Shown here piece by piece: positions 100 to 29,846 of a DNA stretch of 29,846 nucleotides. A model generated the notes under the pieces. That model was given only the letters and a program-made list of their open reading frames with translations, did not search any database and was not told the DNA's origin. Position 1 is the stretch's first letter, and every line of letters starts with the position of its first letter. Both the position numbers and the translations under genes were made by a program. This stretch comes from a virus. Location: IMG/VR virus record IMGVR_UViG_3300013126_000164, positions 1-29,846 of that record. The stretch is one strand, 5' to 3'.

Positions 100-100
100 T

Positions 101-535: not shown

Positions 536-567
536 TAGGCGTTTGCCTAAGAAAGTCGGTGAGTTAA

Positions 568-5251: not shown

Positions 5252-5252
5252 T

Positions 5253-7371: not shown

Positions 7372-7377
7372 AAAATT

Positions 7378-7419
7378 GGAAGGGGCTACAGTTTTCCTCC
7401 CTTTACTGTAGTCTTTTCC
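7378..7419 (+). terminator. Long wobble-paired hairpin after the nuclease gene
   Basis: Bases 7378-7392 pair with 7405-7419 over 15 positions when G-U pairs are allowed, around a 12-base pyrimidine-rich loop. The right arm contains CTTTTCCC but there is no long U-run after the stem, so it is only a weak intrinsic terminator. It may instead be an RNA-stabilising 3' structure or control the next ORF, whose ATG lies 5 bases beyond the stem without a Shine-Dalgarno site. Confidence 0.45.
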
Positions 7420-7423
7420 CTCT

Positions 7424-7675
7424 ATGGAAAAATTAAAACAACAACTTAAAATGCTAATAGCCACTCCAAAGGGGTGGCTTTCTTGGCTTATAGCGAACGT
7501 TATAACCTCTTTACCGTGGGCTATACCGTTAATCTACGGCTTTGTTTTTAAGGATAACAACGGTTATGTGATTGCAGGGTTTGTATGGGCATTCGTAATG
7601 CTACCTATTACCCCGTTTTGGATGTTAAACGTTATTATAGCAGTCTTCTTACGTAATAAAATTATTAAGGGGTAG
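7424..7675 (+). CDS. Small two-helix membrane protein, 83 aa
   Basis: Two hydrophobic segments (about residues 19-41 and 47-74) are joined by a short polar turn FKDNNGY; both ends are basic, suggesting an inner-membrane hairpin. Function unknown; a holin-like role is possible from topology only. No Shine-Dalgarno sequence precedes the ATG, which follows a pyrimidine run right after a long hairpin, so it may be weakly or conditionally translated. A terminator-like hairpin lies inside its 5' end (7459-7484), and its stop codon is part of the acceptor arm of the tRNA-like element. Confidence 0.5.
   Translation: MEKLKQQLKMLIATPKGWLSWLIANVITSLPWAIPLIYGFVFKDNNGYVIAGFVWAFVMLPITPFWMLNVIIAVFLRNKIIKG
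7459..7484 (+). terminator. Intrinsic-terminator-like hairpin inside the small membrane-protein ORF
   Basis: AGCCACTCC pairs with GGGGTGGCT (one G-U pair) around an AAA loop, followed by TTCTT. The stem is GC-rich and compact and could end part of the early rightward transcription. It encodes the ATPKGWL stretch, so it may also be a coding coincidence. Confidence 0.45.
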
Positions 7676-7747
7676 TCGGGTAAGTTAACCTACAACCTTA
7701 ACTGAGTGTAGGTTAAAACGTGGGTTCAACTCCCACCTACTCCACCA
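7669..7747 (+). tRNA. tRNA-like element with encoded CCA and abnormal anticodon arm
   Basis: GGGGTAG (7669-7675) pairs with CTACTCC (7737-7743), followed by discriminator A and CCA (7745-7747). The T-arm is canonical: GTGGG-TTCAACT-CCCAC (7720-7736). A weak D-arm can be drawn (GGGT/ACCT around a 6-base loop lacking the GG pair). The centre does not give a normal 5-bp stem with 7-base loop. Instead TTAACCTACA and TGTAGGTTAA form a perfect 10-bp stem around the 12-base loop ACCTTAACTGAG. No anticodon has both U33 and a purine at 37; UAA is the least bad reading. It is either a degenerate tRNA or a tRNA mimic. Total length is 79 bases. Confidence 0.55.
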
Positions 7748-7800
7748 AATACTACCTATTATTCCTATAAAAAGAGGTAGTAAATTCCTATAAATAGGAG

Positions 7801-7818
7801 TTTCGATTATAATCGAAA
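7801..7818. promoter_or_regulatory. Perfect 18-bp palindrome, operator-like, copy 1
   Basis: TTTCGATTATAATCGAAA is its own reverse complement and has a TATAAT box at 7808-7813 (and the same on the other strand). A dimeric repressor bound here would cover a -10 element. The binding protein is unknown. Confidence 0.6.
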
Positions 7819-7823
7819 TTGAT

Positions 7824-7853
7824 TGAGAAAATTACACAAACTTCGACTATAAT
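7824..7853 (+). promoter_or_regulatory. Candidate promoter overlapping palindrome copy 2
   Basis: TTGAGA (7824-7829), an 18-base spacer and TATAAT (7848-7853) give a good sigma-A-type match. The -10 box lies in the middle of the second palindrome. Transcription would start near 7860 and meet the bidirectional terminator at 7920-7944, with no ORF in between. Confidence 0.5.
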
Positions 7854-7858
7854 CGAAA
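7841..7858. promoter_or_regulatory. Near-perfect palindrome, operator-like, copy 2
   Basis: CTTCGACTATAATCGAAA matches copy 1 at 16 of 18 positions and lies exactly 40 bp further on, about four helical turns, so two bound dimers could face the same side of the DNA. Confidence 0.6.
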
Positions 7859-7859
7859 T

Positions 7860-7944
7860 GTTATCCTATTAGCAATTTAGGTTGTTTTATACCTATTATT
7901 GCCAACATATTAGCATAAGAAAAGAGCCCCGTAGGGCTCTTTTT
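7860..7944 (+). ncRNA. Possible short RNA between promoter and terminator
   Basis: A transcript from the 7824-7853 promoter would be about 85 bases, ending at the GAGCCC/GGGCTC terminator hairpin. It has no usable ORF. Because it runs against the end of the late operon, it could also only serve to block read-through. Support is limited to promoter and terminator shape. Confidence 0.3.
7920..7944. terminator. Bidirectional intrinsic terminator between converging operons
   Basis: AAAAGAGCCC and GGGCTCTTTT form a perfect 10-bp stem around CGTA. The A- and T-flanks make it a terminator on both strands: it ends the leftward virion operon (the stop codon of the 1093-aa gene lies in its flank) and any rightward transcript. 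Confidence 0.88.
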
Positions 7945-10900
7945 ATTTGGGTTTGTACTGATAACCTTGACGTTTTTTTAGTTCGTCTAAGGTTGGTAGT
8001 CTTTCGCCCGTTTGTTGTTCGTATAACTTTCTTAGATTTCTTAATTCTTCTAACCGTTGATATAGGTTAGTTAATTGAATTTCCGACAACTTCTTGGTTT
8101 GTGTTAGACCTAAAGCCGAGTTCAAGTCATCTGCAAAATCACCTAAATTTTGTTTACCGACAGCAGTATCTACAAGACTTAGTAATCCAGATACAAGTCT
8201 TCTTGGGTTTCGTAGACCTAAGTCATCCGCAATCTTTTGAATAACTGGGTCTCCAGATAGATAAGCCTCTCCATCTTTACCTCTAATTTCGGATAAAACA
8301 CCAGTTCCCTTTTCCATACGATTAGTTTGACCTGGGAAATCTTTTAAAGGGGCTCCTGTGAAGCTATCTCTACCCGTACCAAGTTCAAGAGCAATTTTTG
8401 CAGGAACCGTTAGAGAAGTAACCCCACGGCTGAATGGTTTTTCAATAAATTCTACAAAATCTGAGACTGGTAGGTTTAACTTTAAAAAGTTAATACTATC
8501 TTTGTCGTCTCTATTAATAAGCATTGGGATTGGTAACCACATATTACTTTTAATATAATCTGGAAGTTCGTTGATGTCCATATCGGTCATCCCTTCTGTC
8601 CAGTGTTTATAACTTCTTAGCAACTTAGCATATTGTTGTGGATTTTTAACAATGTTCTTAGATTGGAATATAAGGTTGTTCTTCATAAACGTATAGAACG
8701 GAATAGCACGTTTCATTACGTCTCTTTCAAACGGAGTAAGTAGAGTATAATCGAATAATGCTTCCCGTACTTGTTTGAAAGCTGCGGTTGAACTACCTGT
8801 CTTCTTTAATGACCAATTATACAAGGCTATACGTTGTATATCGTCCATTTCTTCAGCTAAGTTAAAGTTAGTTTCTACAACTTTTTGAAGAATGTTTTTG
8901 TCTTTAAAGTTTTTGCCTTGACCTAAGCGTTCAATCATTGCCTTAACGTCTTCTAAGTCTCGTGCTCCACGGTGACCCGTAAGAACACCACTCTTAGCAA
9001 TTTCGTCAAAACTATTTAAGAATAGTTTATCTGCTTGTTTCAACGCTTGTTCGCCAAATTCGGCACGTAATTTAGCAAGTCGTTTATACTTCATTAGGTC
9101 TTTAATTGCTTGGGCTTGATAACGTATAATATCTACCGTATTCATACCAACAAGATACATATTAGATGCGTTACCAAAGAAGTTTCTACCGTGGAAACCT
9201 GGGCTTAATAATGTAAATCCTTTCCATTGAGCCATAAGTTTATCATAGTACTCAATTAATTTAGGAACTTCTCTATAGGCGTTATCTGCGTTTTTTAGAA
9301 TATTATATGCAGATTTTTGCATTGCAACGGTACCATCACCCGCAGCACCAACAGTTGCTAAGAAAGTATCATTAAATGCCTTTTGCATTTCTGGTGGTAG
9401 GTTTTTGAATAAGTTAGAGAACTCATCTTTAAATGATTTAATAGCTTTAAAACCATTTGGAAGTTGTTCTTGAATTTCTTTGATAGTTTTACCTTTCATT
9501 GAAATAAAGAACTCTGGAGCACCATCTACTTTTACATATTTACCTGTAAAATCGGGTTCAACACCTAAGAACATCTTAGTTAAATTCGTTTGTGTATATT
9601 GCTTTTGAGCAACATTAACTAAGTCTTGTACAGATAGTAAGGCACTTTCGTTAAATAAGTCGCCTTCAATACCATATAAGTCTTTTAAAGCGGCGTTAAT
9701 TTCGCCAGTCGTACCTTCATAAGTACGAGCGGCAAGGTCTGAATGACCTGGACGGATGTAATCTGTAACATAATATCTTGAATTTTTAAACAATTCTTCT
9801 GCTTGTGCGGTAGGAACACGACGTAAATATTCTACATTACTTGCAAATGTCTTACCACCAACATTAAACTCACCCATTTGTTCTAAGAACTTACGGGTTT
9901 CCGCTTGAATATTTCTTAATTTGTCTGTAGCATTTTTTAATGTATCACCGTGTTTGGCAATCGCTTCCATTGTTTGAGGAAGTAGTTTTCTTTTACCAAT
10001 ATCTAAAACAGCGTTTAAAAGGTTATCCCCTTGCGTAGTACTAAGAGTTTCAATTATCTTAGCAAACTCAGCACTGTCTCCGATAAACTCTAAACCAACA
10101 GAACCTTTTTGACCAACTCGAGTTAATAAAACATCTTTACCGATAATCTTATTGGCTTGTTCAATGTAGCCTCTTAGTTTTTGATATGCTGCTGGATTGT
10201 CTATTGCGTTTAAACCTGGGATTGCTTTTGAAGCAATTTTACCAGTGGCTTGAGCCCCACGTCTTGCTACGTCATCCGCAAATTTAGGAATGATGTTGTT
10301 CATAATAATTTTACCGTCTGGTAAAACTACACTCCAGGCTTTAGTTGCAGCATCTTGAACTAAGTTTGCACCGTTTTGAATGATGTCTGAAGCAATACGG
10401 TCTGCATCCTTAATACCACTTTTTCTTAGAATATCGCTAACATCGTTAATAGCAATCTTTAAGTTGTCTGCCGTTTGACCAGCTTCTGCACTAATCTTTT
10501 TAATAGCACGAATTTCGTCATCGGTTAAACCTTTAGTAGCATTAAAAATATAACCTGCATCATCAGCAAATTTTGCAACACCTTTAACAAAGCCTTCGAC
10601 TGCTTCTGCGGCTGGTTTTAATTTAGTACTTGCTTTGGCGGCATCAAGTAAAGAACCACCAACTTTTGCAACGGCAGAACCACCAACACCTAATACCTTC
10701 TTTAATGGCTTAGTAATAACGCCAAAACCAAGATAGGTTGTGGGGTCTGAAGCAATATCTAAACCTACGTCAAGAACAAAGTTTCCGATTTCGTCAGCAA
10801 TACCTTCTCCTTCTTTAAACTGTAAGAAGTTCTTATCACCCGTAAGGTTTTGAAGAGCTTCTTTTGTAGATAATTTTTCTTTACCTGCTAAACCATCCCA

Positions 10901-11224
10901 AGCTGCTTCTAATACATTTCTTCTATCGCTATCACCTAAAGAACTTAAAACGTTTGAAACTACTTGACGAGGTCTATCTAACACTTCAAGAATGTCCATA
11001 AGAACATCTTGTTTAGGTGTTAGATTTAATGCCTTCTCAAGTATGTTTCTTTTATCCAGGTCTTTTTGTGGAAGGTTAGTATCTACACCGACCCCACTAA
11101 ACCTCTTTTCAAGATTAGATACTTGCCCTTGAATATAAGCATTAGTATCTTTTGTTGCAGGTTTAAAAAGATTAACTGCTGTTGGTTTATACTTATAGTT
11201 ATATTTTGGTTTTTTGATTGCCAT
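7943..11224 (-). CDS. Large putative internal virion (DNA ejection) protein, 1093 aa
   Basis: Last and largest gene of the leftward virion operon. It is rich in helix-forming Ala, Lys and Leu, with Gly-rich amphipathic stretches near residues 165-260. Around 670 it has SPGFHGRNFFGN and around 830-850 FERDVMKRAIPFYTFMKNN. I know this pair from very large phage proteins carrying LPD-type (large polyvalent protein) domains or annotated as internal virion proteins. The likely role is to sit in the capsid and be ejected with DNA. No peptidase or muramidase motif was recognised. There is no clear Shine-Dalgarno; the ATG lies 4 bases after the upstream stop, so translation is probably coupled. The function is inferred from position and size. 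Confidence 0.6.
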   Translation of the reverse strand: MAIKKPKYNYKYKPTAVNLFKPATKDTNAYIQGQVSNLEKRFSGVGVDTNLPQKDLDKRNILEKALNLTPKQDVLMDILEVLDRPRQVVSNVLSSLGDSDRRNVLEAAWDGLAGKEKLSTKEALQNLTGDKNFLQFKEGEGIADEIGNFVLDVGLDIASDPTTYLGFGVITKPLKKVLGVGGSAVAKVGGSLLDAAKASTKLKPAAEAVEGFVKGVAKFADDAGYIFNATKGLTDDEIRAIKKISAEAGQTADNLKIAINDVSDILRKSGIKDADRIASDIIQNGANLVQDAATKAWSVVLPDGKIIMNNIIPKFADDVARRGAQATGKIASKAIPGLNAIDNPAAYQKLRGYIEQANKIIGKDVLLTRVGQKGSVGLEFIGDSAEFAKIIETLSTTQGDNLLNAVLDIGKRKLLPQTMEAIAKHGDTLKNATDKLRNIQAETRKFLEQMGEFNVGGKTFASNVEYLRRVPTAQAEELFKNSRYYVTDYIRPGHSDLAARTYEGTTGEINAALKDLYGIEGDLFNESALLSVQDLVNVAQKQYTQTNLTKMFLGVEPDFTGKYVKVDGAPEFFISMKGKTIKEIQEQLPNGFKAIKSFKDEFSNLFKNLPPEMQKAFNDTFLATVGAAGDGTVAMQKSAYNILKNADNAYREVPKLIEYYDKLMAQWKGFTLLSPGFHGRNFFGNASNMYLVGMNTVDIIRYQAQAIKDLMKYKRLAKLRAEFGEQALKQADKLFLNSFDEIAKSGVLTGHRGARDLEDVKAMIERLGQGKNFKDKNILQKVVETNFNLAEEMDDIQRIALYNWSLKKTGSSTAAFKQVREALFDYTLLTPFERDVMKRAIPFYTFMKNNLIFQSKNIVKNPQQYAKLLRSYKHWTEGMTDMDINELPDYIKSNMWLPIPMLINRDDKDSINFLKLNLPVSDFVEFIEKPFSRGVTSLTVPAKIALELGTGRDSFTGAPLKDFPGQTNRMEKGTGVLSEIRGKDGEAYLSGDPVIQKIADDLGLRNPRRLVSGLLSLVDTAVGKQNLGDFADDLNSALGLTQTKKLSEIQLTNLYQRLEELRNLRKLYEQQTGERLPTLDELKKRQGYQYKPK

Positions 11225-11225
11225 T

Positions 11226-11894
11226 TTATCTATTCTTATATGGGTTATTTGCGTCTAACTCTTGTTGTGTTATCATCGGATTATTGCGTTTTTGTTCGGC
11301 TTCCCATTGTAAGGTTTCTGGTGATTTACCCCAGTTACTTGGGAATATGTATGCACCATATCTCCACCAATCAACAGTAGTACCTGGTTTACCTTGTTGT
11401 AAGAAAGTAGTTATTTGGTCTGGACTATATCCTAAAGCTTGTAAACGTTGTTGTTTTTCGGTATCCGTTAACTTAGTGTCATTGACAATAGATTGTAATT
11501 GTTCAACTCTTTGGTAATTAAATTGTTGATTTTCACGTTCATATTGTTGTGCTTGTTGACCTTCTAATAAGGCATTGCTATAGATAGAAGCTTCACCAGC
11601 CTTTTGTTGTCTAAATGCGGCTTCTTGACCTTGCATTAAGTTGCCAAGTTGTTCCGCTTGTTGAGCACCTAAACCTGCACGAACACCTGCGGCTTGCCCA
11701 CCAGAAAGACCACGTTGAGCAGATGCCCCAAGACCCATACCATAACCTTGCTTACGCAAACGTTGATATGCGGTTGAGTAGTCTCTACCAATGTTTTGTT
11801 TTTCTAATTCTGATTGTGCTTTTAATCTTTCATAAGCGGCTTTAAAGGCATTTTCGCCTGCTCCGCCTGGTGTAAATGGATTTTGTTCTGCCAT
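11226..11894 (-). CDS. Putative internal virion / core protein, 222 aa
   Basis: Gln-, Ala- and Gly-rich protein with a long helical segment (residues ~15-45 and ~80-135) and a Gly/Ala-rich patch GYGMGLGASAQRGLSGG. A patch of this type in a helical, Gln-rich protein beside a very large one resembles the small internal core proteins of podophages (T7 gp14 type), but identity is not shown. The C-terminus has a compact, aromatic region (WWRYGAYIFPSNWG). AAGGAGAAG precedes the ATG. The next gene follows one base after its stop. Confidence 0.5.
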   Translation of the reverse strand: MAEQNPFTPGGAGENAFKAAYERLKAQSELEKQNIGRDYSTAYQRLRKQGYGMGLGASAQRGLSGGQAAGVRAGLGAQQAEQLGNLMQGQEAAFRQQKAGEASIYSNALLEGQQAQQYERENQQFNYQRVEQLQSIVNDTKLTDTEKQQRLQALGYSPDQITTFLQQGKPGTTVDWWRYGAYIFPSNWGKSPETLQWEAEQKRNNPMITQQELDANNPYKNR

Positions 11895-11895
11895 A

Positions 11896-12759
11896 TTATT
11901 TCTTCTCCTTAACCCTAAAGGTTAGATAATCTTTAATGATGTTGTATCTTGTATTTAAGTCTACAGTCATCACTTGTTTAATATAGTTACGAGCGTATTC
12001 CCGTCCATTTAAGAACATTGATACGATTAGGAATAAACTTGTTGCTAACTTGAACCAGAACGCCGTATCTAATAAATCTGCGGTGTATATGAAGGCATTG
12101 AAGAACGCTGCACCACCAACCGCAAATAAGAACTGAGCGTAGTTATCTTTAACTTTTCGACCTAACGTATCTTGTCTTGTTAACTTTTTTTCACTCTTAA
12201 TGACTTCGCCTGTTTCCACAAAACTACGGTCAATTTCATCGAAATCTACTCGTAATGCAAGGATTAGTTTATCTAATCGTTCTACCTTGATGCTTTCTTC
12301 AAGGTTAATTCGTCTTCTACAATATCTATTCTTCTTTTTATCTTCGTCAGTACCAAAGTACCATATTTCTAAGTTTTTAGGTTTTGCTTTGAGTTCTTCT
12401 TTACTAATCTTGTTTTGAACCTTTGCTCGGTAAGCGGCTATCTTCTCCGCCTTATTCCGATTGAAGACCCAAGTACCAAACTCGCTGTCTAAGTCGTTAC
12501 GAACTGAAGTATCTACACTTGTCTTTAGGTTTATATAACCCTTGTCCGTTTCTGAGAACTTAACGATATACATAGACACGGTAGCGATTAACACAAGCAA
12601 GTTGGCTAAGTTTTGTGAGATAACTTTATTCCAGAACTCTGCACTGCTTAAGATGTTATCTTGGTATTGTATCGTTAGGATATTGAATAACCCAACGATG
12701 GCGACTGCCGCAATGTATAAGATTGCGTACGGTAATGCTCTCCCTATTTTAGCCCACAT
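11896..12759 (-). CDS. Four-helix membrane protein of unknown function, 287 aa
   Basis: Two transmembrane segments near the N-terminus (about residues 8-28 and 46-66), a charged soluble part of ~140 residues rich in Lys, Glu and Arg, then two more (about 208-230 and 235-253) and a basic tail. I do not recognise the family. It lies with two other membrane proteins between the tail-fibre group and the ejection-protein genes, so it could form part of an entry pore, a holin system or superinfection exclusion. AAAGGAG precedes the ATG. A CHC-like metal site is absent. Confidence 0.75.
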   Translation of the reverse strand: MWAKIGRALPYAILYIAAVAIVGLFNILTIQYQDNILSSAEFWNKVISQNLANLLVLIATVSMYIVKFSETDKGYINLKTSVDTSVRNDLDSEFGTWVFNRNKAEKIAAYRAKVQNKISKEELKAKPKNLEIWYFGTDEDKKKNRYCRRRINLEESIKVERLDKLILALRVDFDEIDRSFVETGEVIKSEKKLTRQDTLGRKVKDNYAQFLFAVGGAAFFNAFIYTADLLDTAFWFKLATSLFLIVSMFLNGREYARNYIKQVMTVDLNTRYNIIKDYLTFRVKEKK

Positions 12760-12770
12760 ATACTACTCCT

Positions 12771-13184
12771 TTATTTCTTTAACCATTTACGGTAATCTTC
12801 TGCACGTTCTTTCTCATACAACGCAAGGAAGACCCCTGCAATCATATTCGATATAAGCGTAAACCCAAACACAGGAACTAAGCGTTGTGCGTAGCGGGTA
12901 GCAAAGAAAACTATTAAAAAAGCAAAAAGGGTTGGGAATATATGCACCAACCAGATTGCGATACCTTTAAATACCGTTACTTGTTCAAAGCTCTTTGCCC
13001 ACTTAACTATCTGCTTTCTAAAGAAAGTCAAGACAATCAGTAGTCCTACCACCCCGATAACTGAGAGTTTAAATTCAGGTGGGGTTTCAAAGAAGGTTAC
13101 AAAGGGGAAGTAATGGTTTAAAACAATTAGCGGTGTCGCTAATGCGAAGGTGATGAAACCTACATAAAACCAGAACTTTTTCAT
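12771..13184 (-). CDS. Four-helix membrane protein of unknown function, 137 aa
   Basis: Nearly all of the protein is hydrophobic, with segments at about residues 4-25, 40-58, 72-95 and 103-122, and a charged C-terminal tail (YEKERAEDYRKWLKK). The size and hydrophobicity fit a holin or other small inner-membrane protein but give no proof. The ribosome site is weak and the start lies one base after the upstream gene, so translation is probably coupled. Confidence 0.7.
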   Translation of the reverse strand: MKKFWFYVGFITFALATPLIVLNHYFPFVTFFETPPEFKLSVIGVVGLLIVLTFFRKQIVKWAKSFEQVTVFKGIAIWLVHIFPTLFAFLIVFFATRYAQRLVPVFGFTLISNMIAGVFLALYEKERAEDYRKWLKK

Positions 13185-13185
13185 A

Positions 13186-13617
13186 TTATTTTACTAATTG
13201 TTCTCTTAATTTAGTTAAAACGTCTTGTCCGACTGCTTGAACCACTTCTTGAATAACTGGTTTTGGTTCTTCTTTCTTAACTTCTTCAACCTTTTCAACT
13301 GGTTGTTTTAAGAAGGTTCTATACTTGTTTTGAATTAAGTTATAGTCTTCTAAGACTGCTGATTTTGTACCTGCTGGAAGATTAGAACCAATAACTGCAT
13401 CTTTATAAAGTTTAGCAGTTAATTCAACCATTTCAGCAACTTGGTCAATCCGTTCAAAGTTTGCTCTTGCTTGAAGCAGTTGGGTCTTTTCGGTATTGAT
13501 TGCACCGATTGAGTTCACGATTAACTTGGTGATAATCCCAAGTACCCCTAACACCACGATTGAGATGACGTTAGAGATGATTGCATTGTCCTGTAGTAAT
13601 TCTAAGATAATTTCCAT
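13186..13617 (-). CDS. Single-pass membrane protein with coiled coil, holin-like topology
   Basis: One hydrophobic helix near the N-terminus (about residues 13-37), then an amphipathic helix (EKTQLLQARANFERIDQVAE) and a Lys/Glu/Pro/Val linker before a C-terminal helix. The topology resembles LLH-type phage holins, which carry one N-terminal helix and a cytoplasmic helix, but length and tail differ. AAAGGAGATG precedes the ATG. The ATG overlaps the stop of the preceding gene. No endolysin is seen in the window, so the lysis role is speculative. Confidence 0.65.
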   Translation of the reverse strand: MEIILELLQDNAIISNVISIVVLGVLGIITKLIVNSIGAINTEKTQLLQARANFERIDQVAEMVELTAKLYKDAVIGSNLPAGTKSAVLEDYNLIQNKYRTFLKQPVEKVEEVKKEEPKPVIQEVVQAVGQDVLTKLREQLVK

Positions 13618-14039
13618 TATAGTACATCTCCTTTGGTGTCTAAGTAATTGAGCACCTTAATAATGTCTTGTTGTTGAGCTTCTAATCGACTTGTGGCTTG
13701 AATAAGTGAGCGGATAATCTGAGGATATTTGTCTTCCATCGGTTGACCTAAGATAATCGCTTGTGTGAGTGGGATTTTGTCTGAGGTGTAACCCTCAACT
13801 TTATCCTTATCTAAAACCCTAATTTTTATTTCAAAATAAGGGTCTTTTAGCTCTTTTTTATCAATTATAATACGATTATTTTCTATTTTACGAAACAAAC
13901 CGCTATTGATACAAAACTCAAGTTGAGCCTCTGGGGAAGCATAAACATTGTCTAAAACAACGTCAGCCTCTATATTATTATACACCAAATTGTCGTTTTC
14001 CATTACAAAAATGTGTCCATCTTTAAGAATAAATTTCAT
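13617..14039 (-). CDS. Unknown virion-associated protein, 140 aa
   Basis: The first ~90 residues look beta-rich, and the C-terminal ~40 (YPQIIRSLIQATSRLEAQQQ) form a probable coiled coil. The layout, a small beta domain plus trimerising helix, is common in phage baseplate or fibre-attachment proteins. I do not recognise the family. The start is weakly marked (GGGGGAT about 13 bases upstream). Confidence 0.65.
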   Translation of the reverse strand: MKFILKDGHIFVMENDNLVYNNIEADVVLDNVYASPEAQLEFCINSGLFRKIENNRIIIDKKELKDPYFEIKIRVLDKDKVEGYTSDKIPLTQAIILGQPMEDKYPQIIRSLIQATSRLEAQQQDIIKVLNYLDTKGDVL

Positions 14040-14041
14040 AG

Positions 14042-14203
14042 CTATTTCTTATCCCCCATATAATCGCCGGCAGTTTTAGCCGCTTTGATGAAGTCTGAGG
14101 CTTTAGGGGCACCTTTGGACCCCACCTTTCGCATTCTTTCTTTGCTACCACGTTTAATTCGTCTACGTTTAGCGTGGATATTTGCATATAATCCTTGTTT
14201 CAT
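14042..14203 (-). CDS. Small conserved basic phage protein, 53 aa
   Basis: Starts MKQGLYANIHAKRRRI and continues with ERMRKVGSKGAP and FIKAAKTA. This pattern (KxGLYANIHAK, RMRKxGSKGAP) is a recurrent small protein in structural operons of short-tailed phages; its function is not established. It is strongly basic, suggesting contact with DNA or an acidic partner. The ATG overlaps the stop of the upstream gene (TAATG), with AAGGTG upstream. Confidence 0.8.
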   Translation of the reverse strand: MKQGLYANIHAKRRRIKRGSKERMRKVGSKGAPKASDFIKAAKTAGDYMGDKK

Positions 14204-14484
14204 TACCATTTCACCTTGTCAGCCCAGTAAGCGGCTGACATTTTACCTTTGGCTATATTTGAGCCGTGTCTTGCTTTGAACGACTTTTGACGTGCCTTGT
14301 CTTTTTCAGACTTAGGGTTAGCACCTGCCCCGCTTACACCTTGTTGACCAAAGCGGATGGTTTTAACTGTGTCTCCTGACTTAGCCACCACAACGTGGGA
14401 CTTAGTAGGATGACTTGGGGTCTTCTTAGGTTGATTGAACCCGCTTACCCCTACCCGTTTGAGTATTGAATAATAATCTTTCAT
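14203..14484 (-). CDS. Small conserved phage virion-operon protein, 93 aa
   Basis: Contains KTPSHPTKSHVVVAK, IRFGQQGVSGAG, ARQKSFKARHGSNIAKGK and ends SAAYWADKVKW. These blocks are familiar from a conserved small protein found in many podophage structural operons, where it usually lacks an assigned function. Basic, Gly-rich and probably compact. The ATG overlaps the stop of the 43-aa gene (ATGA), and AAAGGAGGG lies just upstream. Always near the tail/fibre genes in my experience, so a structural or assembly role is likely. Confidence 0.8.
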   Translation of the reverse strand: MKDYYSILKRVGVSGFNQPKKTPSHPTKSHVVVAKSGDTVKTIRFGQQGVSGAGANPKSEKDKARQKSFKARHGSNIAKGKMSAAYWADKVKW

Positions 14485-14612
14485 TTTTCCCTCCTTTTGA
14501 AGTATTCAACTTCACGCATACGCTTTTTAGCACCTTCTTTTGAACTACTTTCTCCCAGATTCTTTCCAGAACGTGAGACTACTCTATACTTTTCGCCAAC
14601 TTTTTTAATCAT
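14481..14612 (-). CDS. Very small protein, 43 aa
   Basis: Starts MIKKVGEKYRVVSRSGKNLG and ends with KKRMREVEYFK, a pattern (beta hairpin, then KEGAKKRMREVEYFK-type helix) seen in tiny proteins of phage structural operons. Stop TGA overlaps the next ATG by four bases. The ribosome site is weak (AGTAGGTC), but the coupling with both neighbours and codon use suggest a true gene. Confidence 0.65.
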   Translation of the reverse strand: MIKKVGEKYRVVSRSGKNLGESSSKEGAKKRMREVEYFKRREK

Positions 14613-14614
14613 CT

Positions 14615-14791
14615 TTATGACCTACTTTTCCAATTATCACAAGGTGATAAACATTCTACTTCAGGTGTTAATGGGTCATCAATACAAATCATTATACAAA
14701 CATCAGGCATTGATTGCCTATGATGAACGAACAGTCCTGAAAGCACAAACAACAGTAATAACCACACGCCAATTAAAATACCAATTCTCAT
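14615..14791 (-). CDS. Small Cys-containing single-pass membrane protein, 58 aa
   Basis: Hydrophobic residues 3-22 (IGILIGVWLLLLFVLSGLFV) form a signal anchor. The C-terminal half holds four cysteines (C32, C36, C47, C51), compatible with two disulphides outside the membrane or a metal site. No lipobox is present. Strong AAGGAG sits 6 bases before the ATG, and the start lies just after the stop of the 68-aa gene, so it is very likely expressed. Function unknown; candidates are a lysis accessory or an entry-blocking protein. Confidence 0.7.
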   Translation of the reverse strand: MRIGILIGVWLLLLFVLSGLFVHHRQSMPDVCIMICIDDPLTPEVECLSPCDNWKSRS

Positions 14792-14794
14792 AGT

Positions 14795-15001
14795 TTACTC
14801 CTTGGTTAAACCCTTAATCCACTCTCGCAATTCTTCGAGCCGTTTTGCTTTTAATTTCGCGGTTTTTTTATACTCAATCCAACGAGGGTCATCTTCCGAC
14901 CATTCGCCACGAATTATTTTGTGGGGTAAATAATCCGTTTTCGCAAACCACTGCTCAATTTCTTTGATTTCGATTTTTTCTTGTAAAAATTTAATTACCA
15001 T
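14795..15001 (-). CDS. Small tail-fibre-associated protein, 68 aa
   Basis: Contains WFAKTDYLPHKIIRGEW followed by DDPRWIEYKKTAKLKAKRLEEL, the layout of small proteins often found next to phage fibre genes: an N-terminal motif with aromatic residues and a C-terminal coiled coil. May act as an assembly helper or be a small subunit. TAGGAGGA precedes the ATG; it starts 8 bases after the fibre gene's stop. Confidence 0.65.
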   Translation of the reverse strand: MVIKFLQEKIEIKEIEQWFAKTDYLPHKIIRGEWSEDDPRWIEYKKTAKLKAKRLEELREWIKGLTKE

Positions 15002-15009
15002 AAATCCTC

Positions 15010-17964
15010 CTAAATTTCGGAATTATAACTTTCAAAAACCATTTTTTGAACGCCACCTTTATTTTCATAATAAACATCAACATTAGTATTTCCTAAAAAC
15101 ACATAATTTGATGTATCACCGACTAAACAAGAAGCACTCGTGACTGTCTGCGTGTTAAAACTATAAACAACTTTTTCGCCAAACGCTTTTTCAACAATAA
15201 TACCAGGGTAAATGCTTGAAAATCCACCATCGGTTAAAGTGAAAAAAACACGAATTTGTTTTGAATTGTTAGGAACTTTTACAACATATGTTCTAAAAGA
15301 ACCTTCTGCCGCTTTTGTAATTATTATTAAATCATTGTTATCAATCTGAGCATTTGTTAAAACATATTCATAAATTCCACCAACCAAATTAAAGGTCGGG
15401 TTAGTTAGCGTTAAGGTAGTATTAGGGTTTGGGTTTGCCCAAACAAGTCCATTTAAATTTTTGGTTAAAACATATCCATTAAGACCAACGCTATTGGTTC
15501 CATCTTTAATTTGTGTTGGTTTCATCGCACCATCATCATCAATGGTTAAAATTACATTACTATTATCTACAATAGGTGCGACATCATTAACTTTTCTATA
15601 ACTCAATCTTAACTGAGCATCGGTTTCGTTTGCTTTTAATACATTTTGAAAAACAAAACTTTCCCTTTGTCTTTTTTCTACTGGCGGTCCGCCTGCTAAA
15701 CTAAAAGGAGTAGGAACAATATATTCATCAATAAAATCAGTAGTAGAACCAATTAAAAACATTTTGGTTCCATTAGGATTAAACACAACACCAGTTGTCA
15801 CGTTTTGTTGAACTGCTAACGTTGTAGTTATTGTGGCACTTGATAATAACCAAGCGGTTGATAATGTATATTCCACTACATTATCTGAACTTGTTCCAAC
15901 CACAAACATTTTTGTTCCAGTGGGGTTAAACCACAATCCAGTAGGTGTAGCATCAGCAGCGGAAATGCCAAAAGTATTTGTTTGTGTCCAACTGGTAACG
16001 TCATACGCAGACGTAAGAGTTAATTCTCTTATAATATCATCGGTGCTATCAACAATATAAACTTTTAATCCATCAGGTTTAAAAAACATTTCTTGATATG
16101 TTTTACTACTTGGCAATGTGGATGTTGAAGACGTTGTAAGAGTAAGGGTTGATATATTCCAAGCGGTTGATAAAGTATATTTGTTAATCTTTCTTGCGGT
16201 GTTATCTAAAACAAACAAGGTTAAACCATTATCAGTAATATAAAGTCCTCTTATAGAAGGAATAGCAGGATTGGTAATACTTGTTGTAGAAGTTATACTT
16301 GTATTTGAAACATCAAAAGCAGTCGTTAAAGCAATTGTTAAAATGTTGCTTCCATCTGCCACAAAAGCAGTTAACCCATCGGGTTTGAAAAATATGTTTT
16401 GTGGTGCTGACCCCAATGCAACATTACTGCTTCTTAAATAAGTCGCGGGTGAAGTAGGCACAACTTCCCAAGTATTACCCTCGATGGCAAGTTTTGGACT
16501 ATTGAAAAACTGTCCGCCCGCAGTAGCGTTTTGGGGTTCTTTTATATTAAAATCTTCAAACGAAAAATTGTAAAATGGTATTAACTCATAACCTCCACCA
16601 ACTGGGTCATATAATCGGTATAACTTAAAGGCAACATCAGGTGTGTAATAAATATAATTTTTAATTACACCATTTGATGCAACCATTGCCCAGTTTGCCA
16701 GAGATTGAGAACTTCCATTGTTTAATTTTTTCCAAATGCTTAAACTATCACCAATATCACCAAACGCTAAAATATGTTTTCCACCAGTTGTAAAAGGAAC
16801 GTTAGGAAACTGATTTTCATTATTGACTTCATAAATTTGCGTGCTAAATAAATCAATAATGTTTTGACTTTTTCTTTCTACTACATTTAAAGCGGTTTGA
16901 GTAGCAGTTGAAACGGGTTTATTTGCATCGCTTGTATTGTTAACGTTGCTTAAACCTACCTGTGCCTGCGTAACTGAGTGTGGGTTATCGGTTCTTGATG
17001 TGTGAGCATCTAAAGCCGTTTGAGTGGCAGTTGAAATTGGTTTATTAGCATCAGAAGTATTATCAGCATTACCCAAACCAACTTGTGCTTTTGTAATTGA
17101 GTGAGGGTTGTTTGTAGCAGAAACGTGAGCATAAGCGGTAGAAACTTTATTCACTTCTGCGGCAGTATAGTCGTTTTCACTCAAACCCTTACCAACAATT
17201 TTATCCACCTTGCCGTTCAATGCGCTAACTAAATCAGCACCTTCAGGATATTGGTTAAAAATTTGTAGAATTTCACCGATTGTATCAACAACATTGTCTC
17301 CGTCATTGGTATTTAATAAAGCGACTAAGTTGTCTAAACTAACTTTATCAGCGGCAGACATTAGACCTGCTAAAGATTGTGTAGCATTACCTAACGCCGT
17401 TTTAAATTCGTTTAAAGTAATACTGTCTTCTAAATCAATTCCTATAATGGTTTGGTTTTTATTTACCTTACCGTCTAATTCTACATCCACGTAATTTGTT
17501 AAATTGCCTACTTCAGTTACCACATAAGCGGTTGTTGCAATTTGTGTAGTATTGGTTGACGCCGTAGCAGTTGGTGCAGTAGGAGTTCCTGTTAATGCAG
17601 GAGATGTAAACATTGTTGCCTTTGATTCGTTTGTAACGTTTCCTAAACCCACTTGTGCTTTTGTAACGGCGTGGGGGTTAGAAGTGTTATTGATATGAGT
17701 ATTAACATAAGTTAAATCAGCTTTTGTATTATCTAAACCCAAAACATCCGTTTCTAACTGAACAATATCAGCTTCTGCAGTCGTCATACGACCTTCTAAA
17801 GCCGTAATATCACCTTCTGCAGTTGTAATTCTTGTTTCGTGGTCAATTAAAGTGTCATCGTTTGTATTTAACGCAGTCGTAATTTGATTACGTTCATAAA
17901 CATAATCTCGTGCGTTAATGATTTCACCATTTCGCCACGTTCTTAATCCTGTTACTTTTGCCAT
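15010..17964 (-). CDS. Tail fibre / receptor-binding protein with beta-propeller-like region
   Basis: The 984-residue product likely binds the host surface. The N-terminus (~20-100) includes heptads (TAEGDITALEGRMTTAEADI) typical of a trimeric coiled coil. Three phage-fibre repeats with NPHxxTKAQVGLGNV follow, plus the TSPALTGTPTAPTA motif. Residues ~360-510 are a mixed beta domain. Residues ~510-756 hold five repeats of ~45-50 residues of the form FxPDGxxxFVxDxxxxxIxxYTLSTAW, which look like beta-propeller blades. The last ~225 residues are beta-rich. GAGGT precedes the ATG, which overlaps the upstream stop (TAATG). The middle and end are the likely host-range part. Confidence 0.85.
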   Translation of the reverse strand: MAKVTGLRTWRNGEIINARDYVYERNQITTALNTNDDTLIDHETRITTAEGDITALEGRMTTAEADIVQLETDVLGLDNTKADLTYVNTHINNTSNPHAVTKAQVGLGNVTNESKATMFTSPALTGTPTAPTATASTNTTQIATTAYVVTEVGNLTNYVDVELDGKVNKNQTIIGIDLEDSITLNEFKTALGNATQSLAGLMSAADKVSLDNLVALLNTNDGDNVVDTIGEILQIFNQYPEGADLVSALNGKVDKIVGKGLSENDYTAAEVNKVSTAYAHVSATNNPHSITKAQVGLGNADNTSDANKPISTATQTALDAHTSRTDNPHSVTQAQVGLSNVNNTSDANKPVSTATQTALNVVERKSQNIIDLFSTQIYEVNNENQFPNVPFTTGGKHILAFGDIGDSLSIWKKLNNGSSQSLANWAMVASNGVIKNYIYYTPDVAFKLYRLYDPVGGGYELIPFYNFSFEDFNIKEPQNATAGGQFFNSPKLAIEGNTWEVVPTSPATYLRSSNVALGSAPQNIFFKPDGLTAFVADGSNILTIALTTAFDVSNTSITSTTSITNPAIPSIRGLYITDNGLTLFVLDNTARKINKYTLSTAWNISTLTLTTSSTSTLPSSKTYQEMFFKPDGLKVYIVDSTDDIIRELTLTSAYDVTSWTQTNTFGISAADATPTGLWFNPTGTKMFVVGTSSDNVVEYTLSTAWLLSSATITTTLAVQQNVTTGVVFNPNGTKMFLIGSTTDFIDEYIVPTPFSLAGGPPVEKRQRESFVFQNVLKANETDAQLRLSYRKVNDVAPIVDNSNVILTIDDDGAMKPTQIKDGTNSVGLNGYVLTKNLNGLVWANPNPNTTLTLTNPTFNLVGGIYEYVLTNAQIDNNDLIIITKAAEGSFRTYVVKVPNNSKQIRVFFTLTDGGFSSIYPGIIVEKAFGEKVVYSFNTQTVTSASCLVGDTSNYVFLGNTNVDVYYENKGGVQKMVFESYNSEI
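15695..16435 (-). repeat. Five degenerate coding repeats: propeller-like blades in the tail fibre
   Basis: The repeats share an FxPDG or FNPxGTKMF turn, then a V(D/G)xxxD strand and a YTLSTAW-type strand. Examples are FFKPDGLKVYIVDSTDD and WFNPTGTKMFVVGTSSDN. Spacing is about 140-150 bases per unit. Repeats are clear at protein level and weak in DNA. Confidence 0.7.
16920..17690 (-). repeat. Tail-fibre NPH-type repeats
   Basis: Three units centred near 17660, 17090 and 16970 encode NPHAVTKAQVGLGNV, NPHSITKAQVGLGNA and NPHSVTQAQVGLSNV. The two later units are followed by NTSDANKPxSTATQTAL. They match the common phage fibre repeat and are probable sites of homologous exchange. Confidence 0.75.
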
Positions 17965-20900
17965 TATCTGGACCTCGCTTTTTTCATTTTATAAGTAATC
18001 CCCAACGACTCTAAAGTCCATTTGGATTTACCCGTTTCGGTAATACTGATTTTACAATTATAACCCTTACCTGCAAGCTTAATTGTTTCGACTGCTGTAA
18101 TAATATTGCCAAAGTCACTTGTTCCAAACGTCCAGTTACCCAACCTTGTACCTAAGTTAATGACTCGCTCAACCGCAGATTGTGAATAACTTTGAATTGG
18201 GTCAATGTTGAGTGTTCCTTCTTCAGACAAGATAACATTTGTAAACGTAATCGAGTTGTCGTAAGTTGAGTCGTTGAGCACGGCGACACTTTCGTCAACT
18301 GTGGTTAACGCCCCACCTACGATTGGAAATCCTTGACTAACAATTTTAATTTCACAAGGCATCGTATCCGTATCTAAGATTTGAAATTCAATAGGCAACC
18401 AAGATTGACTAACTGGGTTTGTATTCGTGAATGTTCCAGTTGCTCTTGATACATTATTAACATAAATTGTATAACTATAAGCCGTAGGTACATTGACTTT
18501 GTCTAAGGTAATCTGATAGAAGTGTCTTTTAATTAAATTAGCATCAAACAAAATATATTGTGTAGGTGATGTTCCACCTTCACCGTAAGTTCCTTCTATA
18601 CCATAGATAGGTTCTTTACCGATATTATATTCGTTTTGAATAGTAAAATCCATTTTTGCTTCTTTATAGTTTTTAGGATGAAAAGGTTGATTTTGATTTA
18701 AAAATGAAGTAGTTACTCTTGATTCAAAAAATTGACCTAAATCTGATGGAAGTGAATAATCTAACTCAACATCAAATATTTTTAAATCATCTTCTTCTTC
18801 AAACTGAGATGGTTGTGTGATAAATCTTAAACGACCATCAACGTTTATATATTTATGAATACCACCAAATTGGTTCCACGCTTTATAAGTATCTTTTACC
18901 CACGCTTTCTTATCTACATAATATCGCAAGGTTTCTCCCGTATTAGGGAAGTGTAACCAGTATTGGTCATCAAAATATGTACAAACTGCATTTGTATCTC
19001 GTGGAACAATATTATAAATATTACGGTCGATTGGGTCTACGTTATATCTTAAATCTTCTGCATATAATGCACGTAGGGTGAAAACGCCTTCTTTAGACAA
19101 GAAGTATAATTGATTACGAACGTTCTTAACACTGTAAGGAGCGATACACCCGATAGTTGGATTAATGGTAATCTTTTGATAGATTTGACCTTCTAAAGGG
19201 TTTAATGGAAGTGGTGTATCACCTTTTAATCCCCAAGTATAACTTTCAGATTGAACTACAAGGATATTCATAAACTTATTAACAGCAGTAACGTCTTCAT
19301 ACAAATCATTTGAGAATTGTATTGTGTAAAAATATGGGATATATTCTTTAGAAGAAATATCGCTAAAGAAAAGATAGTCTGAATGTGTTGGATGACCAAA
19401 GAAACATAACCGTCCGTTATGTTCAGTTAATCTATTGCATTGATGTACTTTTAATGTGTCTAAGGGCGGCTCATTAAAGTCGGTTAACTTTTCAGGAGTT
19501 ACCCAAATATTAGTATACTCAATCGTGTTTAAAACTGTTTCATCTGTGTAGAAAACAGGAGCAACGCTTTGGTCATTTGTTCCATCTGCTTTCTTAGCAT
19601 ATCTAAAAGAAGACTCAGAAAGAACAAATTCAACACGATAATCCCAATAACCTGCAACAAGATTATAAAGCTCTACTTTAGTTCTATTTAAAACATCAGT
19701 ACTCAGATTAGGGAAAATATTATTAGCACCAAACCCAAGGTCGTTTGTTAACATAGAGACTGGGTAAGTAACACCACTTCGTGTAATGCTAAATTCAGCT
19801 ATGCTATCCGTAACGGTTTCGTAAGCTGTTTCAACAGTTATACCAGCTCTTCTTTTTGATATACGAGCTTTAATATTTAGTTCGTATCGTTTATTGTCTA
19901 TAGTATAAACACCACCAGATAAAGTCCATTTTGCCCAAGGATTATTCCAAGTAGCTGGTGTGGTTGAAGAGTCAAAAACATTATCTCCAGAAGTCCAATA
20001 ATCATAAGTGGCATTGTTGTATAAATGATACGCAACTTCAAAGTTTAATTTACCGTTATCTAATTGATATGGTAAAAACGGATACTTGATAAGTTCTTTA
20101 AAGATTACGCTTCTAAGAGGAACGGCAACACTGTCATAAGTAGAGCCGTGAGAACTTGTTTCCGTTAAAGTATCCGTATCGTATAAATATCCTTCAGTGT
20201 CTACGCTATTTAAGTCGTATCCACGTAATTGAATATCTAAGTCAGATGGTTCGTATTGTTGAAATACATAAATCTTGCCATCGCCTTTATAATAAACTGG
20301 ATAGGTGCCTGTGGCAATATAAAGCTTATCGTCTAATCTAACACCTTCAATAGGATGTGTGGTTTGGAAATCAGCATCATAAATGCTAACAATACCAGTT
20401 AATAATCCAACACTTCCAGTTGCGTTATTCCAACGATAGTACTTATTAGTTCTTGTATCAAAGTAGTAAGCACCTTGAGTTAAACCACTTGGAAATGGGA
20501 AAGTTGAACTCGTAACAGAAGTCCAGGTTGTGTTAGGGGTTCCAGTTCCTGTATTTACATAGATTGTATTGTTTGTAGAATGAACGTATTCTCCTGGAGC
20601 ACCAAAAGTAACTCCGTTTGGGTTTCCTGAAACAAATCTTGGTGCATTAGTACCAAATACTGGATTACTACCAAAGTTTGTAGCACCTGTAAATGTTTGG
20701 TTAACATAGATACCTAAGGAAGATAAATCAACCGCAACGCCTGTTTCGCTATCAAATAAATTGACTACTTGGAAACCAGCACCTTGGTCAATGTAAAAAC
20801 GACCTTCAATAGCAATGATTTTGTGGATTGTATTTTCACTTACATAATATTCAAAATAACCTTGAACGATTGAGCTAACGCTTGTTAAGCTTGCCCAAGG

Positions 20901-26863: not shown

Positions 26864-28375
26864 CTAAAATCCTGTGTACCATTCCGTAACAGGGGTGTCA
26901 TCTTCTTGTAATTCTTTTGGAAAATTGAATGTTTTTCTACCAGCAGTCTTTGTCGAATTGAAGTAAACTTCGTTGACTAAGTCTTCTGGATTATCTGGCA
27001 GCTCTTGAATTACATAACGCAGAGCGTCCATTGCGTGGTTGTTCGAGTCAATCGGTTTCTCCCCCCGATTTTTCTCTATGTCTAATGCTCCACTACTATA
27101 TTTATACTCACGACCTTCCCGAATTACATTAAAACAATTTGACATTATCTTCAATTTACCCAAGGCAAAGTAGGTAAATACCTTCATAATCCCTGCATCT
27201 ATGTTATTTATGCCCTCTTTAAACCACAATCCATACTCAGAATAGTGCCCAAAGTAGCTCTTTCCATTGGTTCCCCGACGGGTCTTACCGCTTGGGTCGG
27301 CAATGATTTGACTATAAATCATCCCCGCAGGCACCTTATCAACCATCGCCCGCATCTTGGTGGCGTGGTGGTTAACTGGTTTTTCCGCCTCATAGTGCTC
27401 GTCGTAGACATAAGCAATCCCTTTATCGGGGTCTATTGCTATCCCTAACATAACCGTTGGGTCTCGTAGCCCAAAGTCAACGCCGAAAAGCCGCTTCCAA
27501 TTCGCTGGAATTGAAAACGGTTCTACAATATGTTCTAAAAACGTAGGATAAACTAACCCTTCGCTATATTCAAAGCTACCGTAGATATATCTTTTTACCC
27601 ACCAGTCTGGTTTACCTCGCCCAATACGGGTTTGGAAGTCTGGGTCTAAATATTTATTTTGGAAAGAGCTATGCAAATGGCAGCTAAGATAAGGGTTGTA
27701 AAAAGGGTCTCGAGGATAATTGATAGTAGCATAAACTTTATCCGACTTATACAAAATCTCAGTTCTAATCCAACCACTATCGGGGTTAGAACAAAGAATT
27801 CCTAACAGTCGAGATTTTTTAACCTTCCTTTTCCCTTCTTCGTCGACTTCATATTCAACCGCTGCTTCGTTTCTTAATCGAGCAGAAAGTTCAACATACA
27901 CTTCGTACTTAGAGTTACTCGCTTCTTCTAAATAAAATCCAGTCAGGTTTAATGACCGTATCTTATCAGCATCGTTGCTGGGCAGTAGCATAATCTCGTG
28001 CCCATTCTTCATTACTATCTTTTCTTCACCCTTGGTTTTGGTCTCATACTTAATATGACCTTCGGGTAAGAACTTCATTAATTCGTTATAACTGGTTTCC
28101 TTCAATAACTGCATTGTTGGTGCGAGCAGTGCCGTCCTGCCGTGAGGAACCGCCAGGACGTGCTCGACAATGGACATTACAGCAGTGGTGGTTTTACCAC
28201 TCCCATACGCCCCAAATATTGCTTTAAATGTGTGAGGGTCTTTATGAAATTGTGCTTGGTGGGGTTGCGGCTTATAATGAATTTCAGTTGCATTACAAAT
28301 ATTACAAACAGAATATTTCTTTCCATCTGGTTGTATCATTTCCCCCGCACTACACAATTTACATTTTCTATTCAA
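26864..28375 (-). CDS. terL: Terminase large subunit with N-terminal zinc knuckle
   Basis: Packaging motor ATPase and nuclease, about 503 residues from TTG 28375. The zinc pairs CKLC and CNIC lie in the first ~30 residues. The ATPase has Walker A GAYGSGKTT, and FYLEEAS, a Walker B/catalytic Glu region. The nuclease has GVDFGLRDPT (Asp), ADPSGKTRRG and a final NNHAMDALRY. I prefer TTG 28375 because GAGGAG sits 7 bases upstream, whereas ATG 28414 has no clear ribosome site; the overlap with the phosphoesterase then falls from 47 to 8 bases. No small terminase is recognised in the window. Confidence 0.92.
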   Translation of the reverse strand: MNRKCKLCSAGEMIQPDGKKYSVCNICNATEIHYKPQPHQAQFHKDPHTFKAIFGAYGSGKTTTAVMSIVEHVLAVPHGRTALLAPTMQLLKETSYNELMKFLPEGHIKYETKTKGEEKIVMKNGHEIMLLPSNDADKIRSLNLTGFYLEEASNSKYEVYVELSARLRNEAAVEYEVDEEGKRKVKKSRLLGILCSNPDSGWIRTEILYKSDKVYATINYPRDPFYNPYLSCHLHSSFQNKYLDPDFQTRIGRGKPDWWVKRYIYGSFEYSEGLVYPTFLEHIVEPFSIPANWKRLFGVDFGLRDPTVMLGIAIDPDKGIAYVYDEHYEAEKPVNHHATKMRAMVDKVPAGMIYSQIIADPSGKTRRGTNGKSYFGHYSEYGLWFKEGINNIDAGIMKVFTYFALGKLKIMSNCFNVIREGREYKYSSGALDIEKNRGEKPIDSNNHAMDALRYVIQELPDNPEDLVNEVYFNSTKTAGRKTFNFPKELQEDDTPVTEWYTGF

Positions 28376-29315
28376 TGAATAACTCCTCGCAATAGCGATG
28401 TCCTCGTTCGGCATTGAATACCATCATTAGTATCCCCGCCTTAGAAGACAAGTTCTTATCCGACTCATAATTCGACTTGACCGTGGACATACTTGGTGCA
28501 TAGAACACTTTTTTATTACAGCCCTTACCTTCGTATAGTGTGACCTCACGGTAGTGATGGAAATGCCCAAACAATCCGTAGTCAAACTGAATGCCCCGAT
28601 AATACGCTAACTCTTGTAGATAACCTTCTTTCTTATTCCCAATTAAATGCCCGTGAGCAACAAACATCTTATGGTTAGCCGTCACTGGAACAACCAGGTC
28701 ATTACCACCCCAGACCATTACATTTCTATTGTTCTTAACACTTTCTTTAATATAATGATAGAACACGTGCATTAAATCTTCTTCAACTAACTCGTTCCTA
28801 TCGGTGCCGAGTGGACGTAGCTGCGTATGGTTTGAGCTTGTAATACAATAGAATTCAACCTTCATTGTCTTAGACAACTTCTGGATTAAATCCGCATACA
28901 CTTTCGACACATCAACAATCTGAAACACCATCCCCTTCTTAATCGCCATTAACTGACTTGTCCGTAATGCCCCACCGTCAATGGTGTCGCCTAACTCCAG
29001 CAGTTTAATTCGCTTGAACTTGAATTGCTTTTGCTTTTGGACAATATAGGCATACACTTTAGCAAGATGCTGTAAAAGGGTCTCGTCCCCGTTATAGTGA
29101 AAGTCACTGGTAACAAAGACATACTCATCATCCTTTGACGTCGAATTGTCTTGTACAAATTTAACAGGCGGCTTTTTCTTTTTGATGGCTGACTTTAATT
29201 CTTCCCCGAACAAAGTCTTGCTTGTCAGAACCTTCAGGTCTTCCTGGTTACGGCTCCGCTCGAAACTAAGATACTGCTTCTGCAAACGTAATTGTCTTTT
29301 GATTTCTAAATCCAT
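28368..29315 (-). CDS. Calcineurin-like metallophosphoesterase
   Basis: The 315-residue product has the metal-binding set DxH (SDFHYN), GDxxD (ELGDTIDGG), N-H (TSSNHTQ instead of GNHE), HGH (VAHGHLIG) and GHxH (GLFGHFHH). These two-metal enzymes cleave phosphodiesters or phosphomonoesters; the substrate is unknown. The first ~60 residues are Lys/Arg-rich and helical. AGGGAGG precedes the ATG. It is the first gene of the leftward arm in this window, directly ahead of terminase; similar enzymes occur in many phages and may act on nucleic acids or nucleotides. Confidence 0.85.
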   Translation of the reverse strand: MDLEIKRQLRLQKQYLSFERSRNQEDLKVLTSKTLFGEELKSAIKKKKPPVKFVQDNSTSKDDEYVFVTSDFHYNGDETLLQHLAKVYAYIVQKQKQFKFKRIKLLELGDTIDGGALRTSQLMAIKKGMVFQIVDVSKVYADLIQKLSKTMKVEFYCITSSNHTQLRPLGTDRNELVEEDLMHVFYHYIKESVKNNRNVMVWGGNDLVVPVTANHKMFVAHGHLIGNKKEGYLQELAYYRGIQFDYGLFGHFHHYREVTLYEGKGCNKKVFYAPSMSTVKSNYESDKNLSSKAGILMMVFNAERGHRYCEELFIE

Positions 29316-29452
29316 AGAAACCTCCCTGATTATTTTATATGCACATATGGCTAATTTTACGCTAAATTTTTTGAGTTAGTGTGTGGGTAGGGGGTTGCTA
29401 TCTATAAAGGATAAAGACACGGACTACCTACCACCCCAACATTTAGGGGTCT

Positions 29453-29477
29453 CCCCTCCGCCCTCCCCCCCTCCCCC
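29453..29477 (-). other. G-quadruplex motif
   Basis: On the - strand four G-runs (5, 7, 3 and 4 G) are separated by loops of 1, 1 and 4 bases, a short-loop motif expected to be stable. It would be in the non-template (RNA-like) strand of leftward transcription toward the phosphoesterase gene. Confidence 0.6.
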
Positions 29478-29507
29478 GTAGGGGTACCCCCCTCCCCCCG
29501 TGGGGTA

Positions 29508-29534
29508 TTAGCACTCCCACCCCTTGACCGCTAA
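29508..29534. promoter_or_regulatory. CIRCE-type inverted repeat, copy 1 (HrcA site)
   Basis: TTAGCACTC, a 9-base spacer, and GACCGCTAA: left arm exact, right arm with two changes from the CIRCE consensus TTAGCACTC-N9-GAGTGCTAA. The spacer is the same as in copy 3, so the copies are likely duplicates. Confidence 0.75.
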
Positions 29535-29539
29535 CCCCT

Positions 29540-29566
29540 TTAGCACTCCGCCCCCTCAAGTGCTAA
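29540..29566. promoter_or_regulatory. CIRCE-type inverted repeat, copy 2 (HrcA site)
   Basis: TTAGCACTC, a 9-base spacer, and AAGTGCTAA: left arm exact, right arm with one change from the consensus. The centre is 32 bp from copy 1. Confidence 0.8.
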
Positions 29567-29587
29567 CCGCACCCCACCCCCCACCCC

Positions 29588-29614
29588 TTAGCACTCCCAC
29601 CCCTTGAGTGCTAA
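29588..29614. promoter_or_regulatory. Perfect CIRCE element, copy 3 (HrcA site)
   Basis: TTAGCACTC-N9-GAGTGCTAA without a mismatch, the full consensus of the operator bound by HrcA, which represses dnaK and groE operons in many bacteria. The centre is 48 bp from copy 2. The nearest visible gene start (29315) is about 270 bp to the left. Confidence 0.9.
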
Positions 29615-29763
29615 AAATACCCACCGCCCCCCACTACTAAAAAACTACTAAACCGCAAAACCGCCAAAACAAAAACAACGCATTAGACGAGCGAAAAACA
29701 GCGGGAGGATATAAACTACCACCCCCACCCCTTCCGTGCCTCCTTGACCCCTTTACGTGATTT

Positions 29764-29846
29764 CGCATTTTATCGCATTTTTTTAGCACCCCAAAAAATC
29801 CCCGTATTTATCGGCATTTTTTACCCCCAAAAAACCCCGTGTTTAT
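29764..29846. repeat. Tandem ~36-bp A/C-tract repeats running off the window edge
   Basis: Two copies, 29774-29811 and 29812-29846, share the order CG(G)CATTTTTT, ACCCC, AAAAAA, CCCCGT, TTTAT; a short third (CGCATTTTAT, 29764-29773) precedes them. The phased A-tracts may bend DNA. Iteron-like or terminal-repeat function is possible. The left copy also holds a CIRCE half-site (TTAGCAC). Confidence 0.65.

Follow-up and report, generated by a model that had tools for sequence, protein, structure and literature searches.

A conserved array of predicted HrcA operators between the early and late genes of a phage with a probable Bacillota host

The window, an entire linear viral record of 29,846 bases, carried three units of the CIRCE operator (TTAGCACTC-N9-GAGTGCTAA) at positions 29508–29614, where the early and the late genes diverge. 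Such a conserved host-repressor operator array in a phage is real and apparently undescribed; its function we infer. Judged by its sequence, the array is very probably a genuine binding site for HrcA and appears to be kept by selection in the early/late control region. HrcA activity is dependent on GroE, and groE and dnaK are repressed through CIRCE (PMC3842655). Since the element held the same place in related phages, the phage probably captures or senses the host heat-shock repressor.

A pattern search allowing up to three mismatches returned exactly three matches, none assigned to a strand. Unit 1 (29508–29534) read TTAGCACTC-CCACCCCTT-GACCGCTAA with 2 mismatches, unit 2 (29540–29566) read TTAGCACTC-CGCCCCCTC-AAGTGCTAA with 1 mismatch, and unit 3 (29588–29614) was perfect (TTAGCACTC-CCACCCCTT-GAGTGCTAA), with start-to-start spacings of 32 and then 48. 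The left arm was exact and the spacer 9 bases long in 3/3 units, which, with the 2, 1, and 0 changes in the right arm, confirmed the structure given in the original prediction. Its claim that the array exceeds chance also held, as 100 dinucleotide-preserving shuffles of the window yielded 0 CIRCE matches in the same search. Each unit could fold as a weak hairpin, as would be expected if the units were only look-alikes of CIRCE, i.e., an RNA hairpin, a terminator, or a chance palindrome. We consider this highly improbable: apart from the shuffles (0/100), perfect CIRCE occurred in 103 stretches of IMG/VR viral contigs vs 1 for a scrambled palindrome, the arms were conserved as sequence beyond what pairing demands, the spacer was fixed at 9 bases with its sequence free, and the units sat in the same place in independent contigs. 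Chance or a hairpin artefact was ruled out by the shuffles, the scrambled-palindrome control, and the arm/spacer conservation.

Three related phages, L061, L109, and L062 (terminase identity to the window of 92%, 88%, and 61%, respectively), had one or two CIRCE units each upstream of the same late operon. The distance from CIRCE to the late-operon start codon was 193 bp in the window and 149–210 bp in the relatives (210 bp in L062). In L061 one CIRCE was perfect and another was truncated at the contig end; L109 had two units with one mismatch each, and L062 one perfect unit. Every unit in the four phages had the 9-base spacer, and identity between phages was 94% in the arms vs 26% in the spacers, the pattern expected of a binding site. 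CIRCE was absent from the close relatives L111/L112 and L133, which nevertheless had two features described below, the late promoter region and the palindrome GGGGTACCCC. The original prediction had proposed scanning related phages for the array and named loss of the repeats in close relatives as evidence against it; the scan recovered the element in L061, L109, and L062 and not in L111/L112 or L133, so that the loss was seen in part. On the terminase tree, CIRCE was present in the clade of the window, L061, and L109 and, apart from that clade, in L062, the placement of which is unsure. Because the window is the whole record, 232 bases separate the array from the end of the contig. A contig-end artefact or chimera was ruled out, as three contigs of other metagenomes had the element at the corresponding position.

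The nearest named phages were the Paenibacillus phages SV21 and API480 (terminase 41%, polymerase 38%), both ~45 kb long. A near-complete relative, L111 (G005), was 44.7 kb, which suggests that the window is short of some 10–15 kb of early genes beyond 29846. The host is probably a member of the Gram-positive Bacillota, based on the named relatives, the GGGAGG ribosome-binding sites, a GC content of 38%, and the cre-type sites of L116 (see below). In searches for a closer host assignment, a terminase-profile search of genome contigs for prophage relatives gave at best 32% identity, to a Saprospirales MAG contig, and spacer-like DNA matches between window positions 1–20000 and 398 Bacillota genomes were weak only (best E 5e-5). 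A separate primase query against viral contigs found nothing. hrcA was present in 5/5 Bacillota genomes tested and is presumed for the phage host. The consensus match, the conservation, the free spacers, and the Bacillota-type phage together give good support to the original reading of the units as CIRCE/HrcA operators in a phage control region.

The left part of the record encoded rightward replication genes (SSB, primase/helicase, DNA polymerase A, and RecE-like) and the right part a leftward late operon (exonuclease-like, terminase, portal, and major head protein). First in the late operon was the exonuclease-like gene (phrog_284; 28368–29315, minus strand, 315 aa), with the terminase large subunit at 26864–28414 (minus strand). 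Alignment of relatives and sequence inspection placed a conserved late-operon promoter region directly before the exonuclease-like gene (29316–29390, minus strand), with the elements CACACA ... GTAAA ... TATAAA/TATAAT ... GGGAGG. Nine relatives kept this region over the part that their contigs cover, and it gave no match in the sigma-70 scan. Moving from the late to the early side, it was followed by a GC-rich stretch with hairpin-like GTAGGGGTACCCCC repeats (29440–29507, no strand), the CIRCE array, a non-conserved stretch, and AT-rich iteron-like repeats of the AAACACGGGGTTTTTT type (29750–29846, no strand). The GGGGTACCCC-type palindrome of the GC-rich stretch was common to the window, L109, L111, and L133. 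The promoter scan found no sigma-70-like promoter in 29200–29846 of the window, in agreement with the earlier remark that the array seems to stand apart from any strong promoter. A separate feature, an Rfam tRNA match of 42 bits at 7669–7744, lay at a convergent gene junction; ARAGORN made no call there, and the anticodon arm looked irregular.

The iteron-like repeats, which were common to L109 and lay on the early side of the array, are a candidate origin or early control sequence. If they were the phage origin, the array could serve replication or packaging, with HrcA as an architectural or blocking protein beside them. This seems improbable to us, as L111/L112 and L133 manage without CIRCE and there was no direct sign of the repeats being an origin. 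An iteron query, GATAAANACGGGGNTTTTTT, was a poor pattern without a match to L109 and retrieved four unrelated contigs only.

No HrcA, Hsp20 (HSP20), or Cpn60 genes were found in the window or in 19 related records, many of them fragments. There was thus no sign of a phage-encoded HrcA in the known family, and the window's lack of an HSP20 or Cpn60 gene agreed with the original prediction. That prediction had also raised a chaperone gene beyond the right edge, in which case the array would be the ordinary operator of that gene. A chaperone gene beside CIRCE is indeed the rule in about a third of the other CIRCE-bearing viral contigs, where the operator adjoined groES/EL, Hsp20, or HtpG genes. 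The right-hand neighbour of the window array lies beyond the contig, and we judged this arrangement with 20 related records: none of them, many being fragments, had an HSP20 or Cpn60 gene, and in L109 the 1.3 kb adjoining the array toward the early genes held only small ORFs, none of which matched the chaperone search baits. The array did not occupy the promoter or leader of a chaperone gene, and one of its sides was the late structural operon. We therefore hold an operator for a phage chaperone gene to be doubtful, even a little more so than a role in replication or packaging, and the earlier suggestion was not upheld for this family.

Our preferred reading, though a tentative one, is that the main function of the array is that of a replication-amplified decoy for HrcA, in line with the titration that the original prediction slightly favoured. 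Host HrcA, in its GroE-assisted form, would bind the phage array, and phage replication would raise the number of CIRCE sites, at three per genome, far above the 2–3 of the host. HrcA would then be spread over the phage operators and drawn off the host sites, the host groE and dnaK operons would be derepressed as capsid folding needs them, and more host chaperones could lead to better folding of phage heads. Support for the decoy comes mainly from copy numbers, and further from the distance to promoters and the absence of a cargo gene. CIRCE (≤1 mismatch) was present in 199/199 sampled Bacillota genomes at 1–5 copies each, mostly 2–3, and a reversed-sequence control in the same genomes had no occurrences in the table. 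One phage genome would thus roughly double the operators in a cell and replication would multiply them, so that replicating phage DNA would soon exceed the host's own sites. The comparison of three promoter-free CIRCE per phage genome vs 1–5 per Bacillota genome takes phage copy number and the amount of HrcA as assumed. Against the decoy are the phages without CIRCE (L111/L112 and L133) and a sibling, L116, with cre-type sites beside promoters in the same slot.

HrcA could instead regulate the phage directly, as the original prediction also suggested. From the array it would restrain early or late genes, either through looping or as a block, and infection would thereby respond to heat or folding stress in the host; HrcA would be diluted as the phage replicates, and the block lifted. 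Four phages share the location of the array in the divergent early/late control region, many other viral contigs have CIRCE as a short-range operator, and the cre-type operators of L116 flank promoters in the equivalent region. Set against this are the lack of a sigma-70-like promoter at the array, the hairpin stretch that separates it from the late promoter region, and, in L109, a distance of ~420 bp to the nearest early promoter candidate. The control-region slot and the L116 sites by promoters make direct control nearly as likely as the decoy.

The L116 region equivalent to the array contained no CIRCE and five cre-type (CcpA/LacI) operators, TGTAAGCGCTTACA and similar. They fell within 700 bp (9081–9771; G009 3479–4169) and nowhere else in 24 kb, with nine strand matches vs 0.04 expected. 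One site was 229 bp before the terminase start, near the 210 bp of CIRCE in L062, and by inspection others flanked promoters. Between two of the sites was a TTGACA-N17-TATAAT promoter with a predicted transcript of ~85 nt ending at a terminator-like hairpin. If CcpA, which is abundant and has many sites, is the reader of the L116 sites, sensing would be a better fit than titration. Other regulators of the LacI family could recognize such sites as well. L112 (1860–4857) had TTAACA-N5-TTWACA six times vs 0.01 expected, several of these just upstream of an early-promoter -35, and the same elements occurred in L111 at 636, 1111, and 2160. They bear a likeness to PhoP boxes.

We put forward, as a speculative generalization, that in this phage family the early/late control region offers host global regulators a docking slot with exchangeable contents. 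Its occupants might be HrcA (window, L061, L109, and L062), a CcpA/LacI-type regulator (L116), and perhaps a reader of TTAACA-N5-TTWACA (L111/L112). If so, phages would exchange operator arrays there in order to soak up or sense the host regulator that counts in their niche.

The array shares with the CIRCE/HrcA control of Bacillota groE and dnaK an identical operator with conserved arms and a free spacer. Bacillota chaperone operons have one or two CIRCE copies at the promoter or leader, whereas the phage has three in a control region where neither a chaperone gene nor an adjoining promoter was found. It likewise resembles the CIRCE before Hsp20, GroES/EL, or HtpG genes in being perfect CIRCE in contigs classed as viral; those, in contrast, are short-range chaperone-gene operators, and some of the contigs may be cellular. 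The Bacillus phage phi29 has Spo0A boxes in its early control region, where direct repression of early promoters is linked to sporulation. These are also host-regulator sites in an early control region, in a lytic phage of a Gram-positive host, but the regulator and site are different. Among documented systems, the closest precedent is the binding of the host regulator PhoB at promoters of cyanophages (PMC10976474). Both systems place host-regulator sites in phage DNA; the PhoB boxes are functional, in a lytic phage, and activate individual cyanophage genes (PMC10976474), whereas binding at the array is predicted and its units are repressor sites without an evident target promoter. Our literature search, which covered few subscription journals, found no published description of CIRCE in phage genomes.

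Head assembly of many phages depends on host GroE, and we know of no account of how phages raise chaperone supply in HrcA-using bacteria. A conserved operator array without a cargo gene would be a simple, DNA-only route to it. That a sibling has cre-type sites in its stead suggests that operator sites alone may be enough for phages to rewire the regulatory networks of their hosts, which would be invisible to gene-based annotation.

The wider set of CIRCE-bearing viral contigs was varied. CIRCE adjoined groES/EL in 13 cases, for which chaperone sequences served as ordinary search baits. An Hsp20-like gene was preceded by perfect CIRCE in ~21 contigs, mostly 20–60 bp away (including L004, L013, L025, L026, L030, L032, L060, L077, and L087), and HSP20 was confirmed in 8 records. 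In L021 a perfect CIRCE (1982–2008) was 42 bp before an HtpG-like (Hsp90) gene. The remaining stretches were mixed, some eukaryotic- or cellular-looking and some in large contigs of phage-like character that carried a single CIRCE region per genome, and given this mixed origin we make no claim that all 103 are phage operators. L028, perhaps a phage, perhaps some other mobile element, had four CIRCE units (5375–5548) at a strict 49-bp period, with GTTAGANNNNTCTAAC-like palindromes interspersed, upstream of a strong promoter. L039 (7037–7140), L091 (379–473), and L006 (11790) were contigs of 164–172 kb with one CIRCE region per record, preceding genes that were alike by eye, and L039 had three TGAAACGTTTCA palindromes beside CIRCE. 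In L047 a distance of 19 nt separated a perfect CIRCE (6412–6438) from the start codon downstream, that of a 319-aa gene with the look of a tail structural gene.
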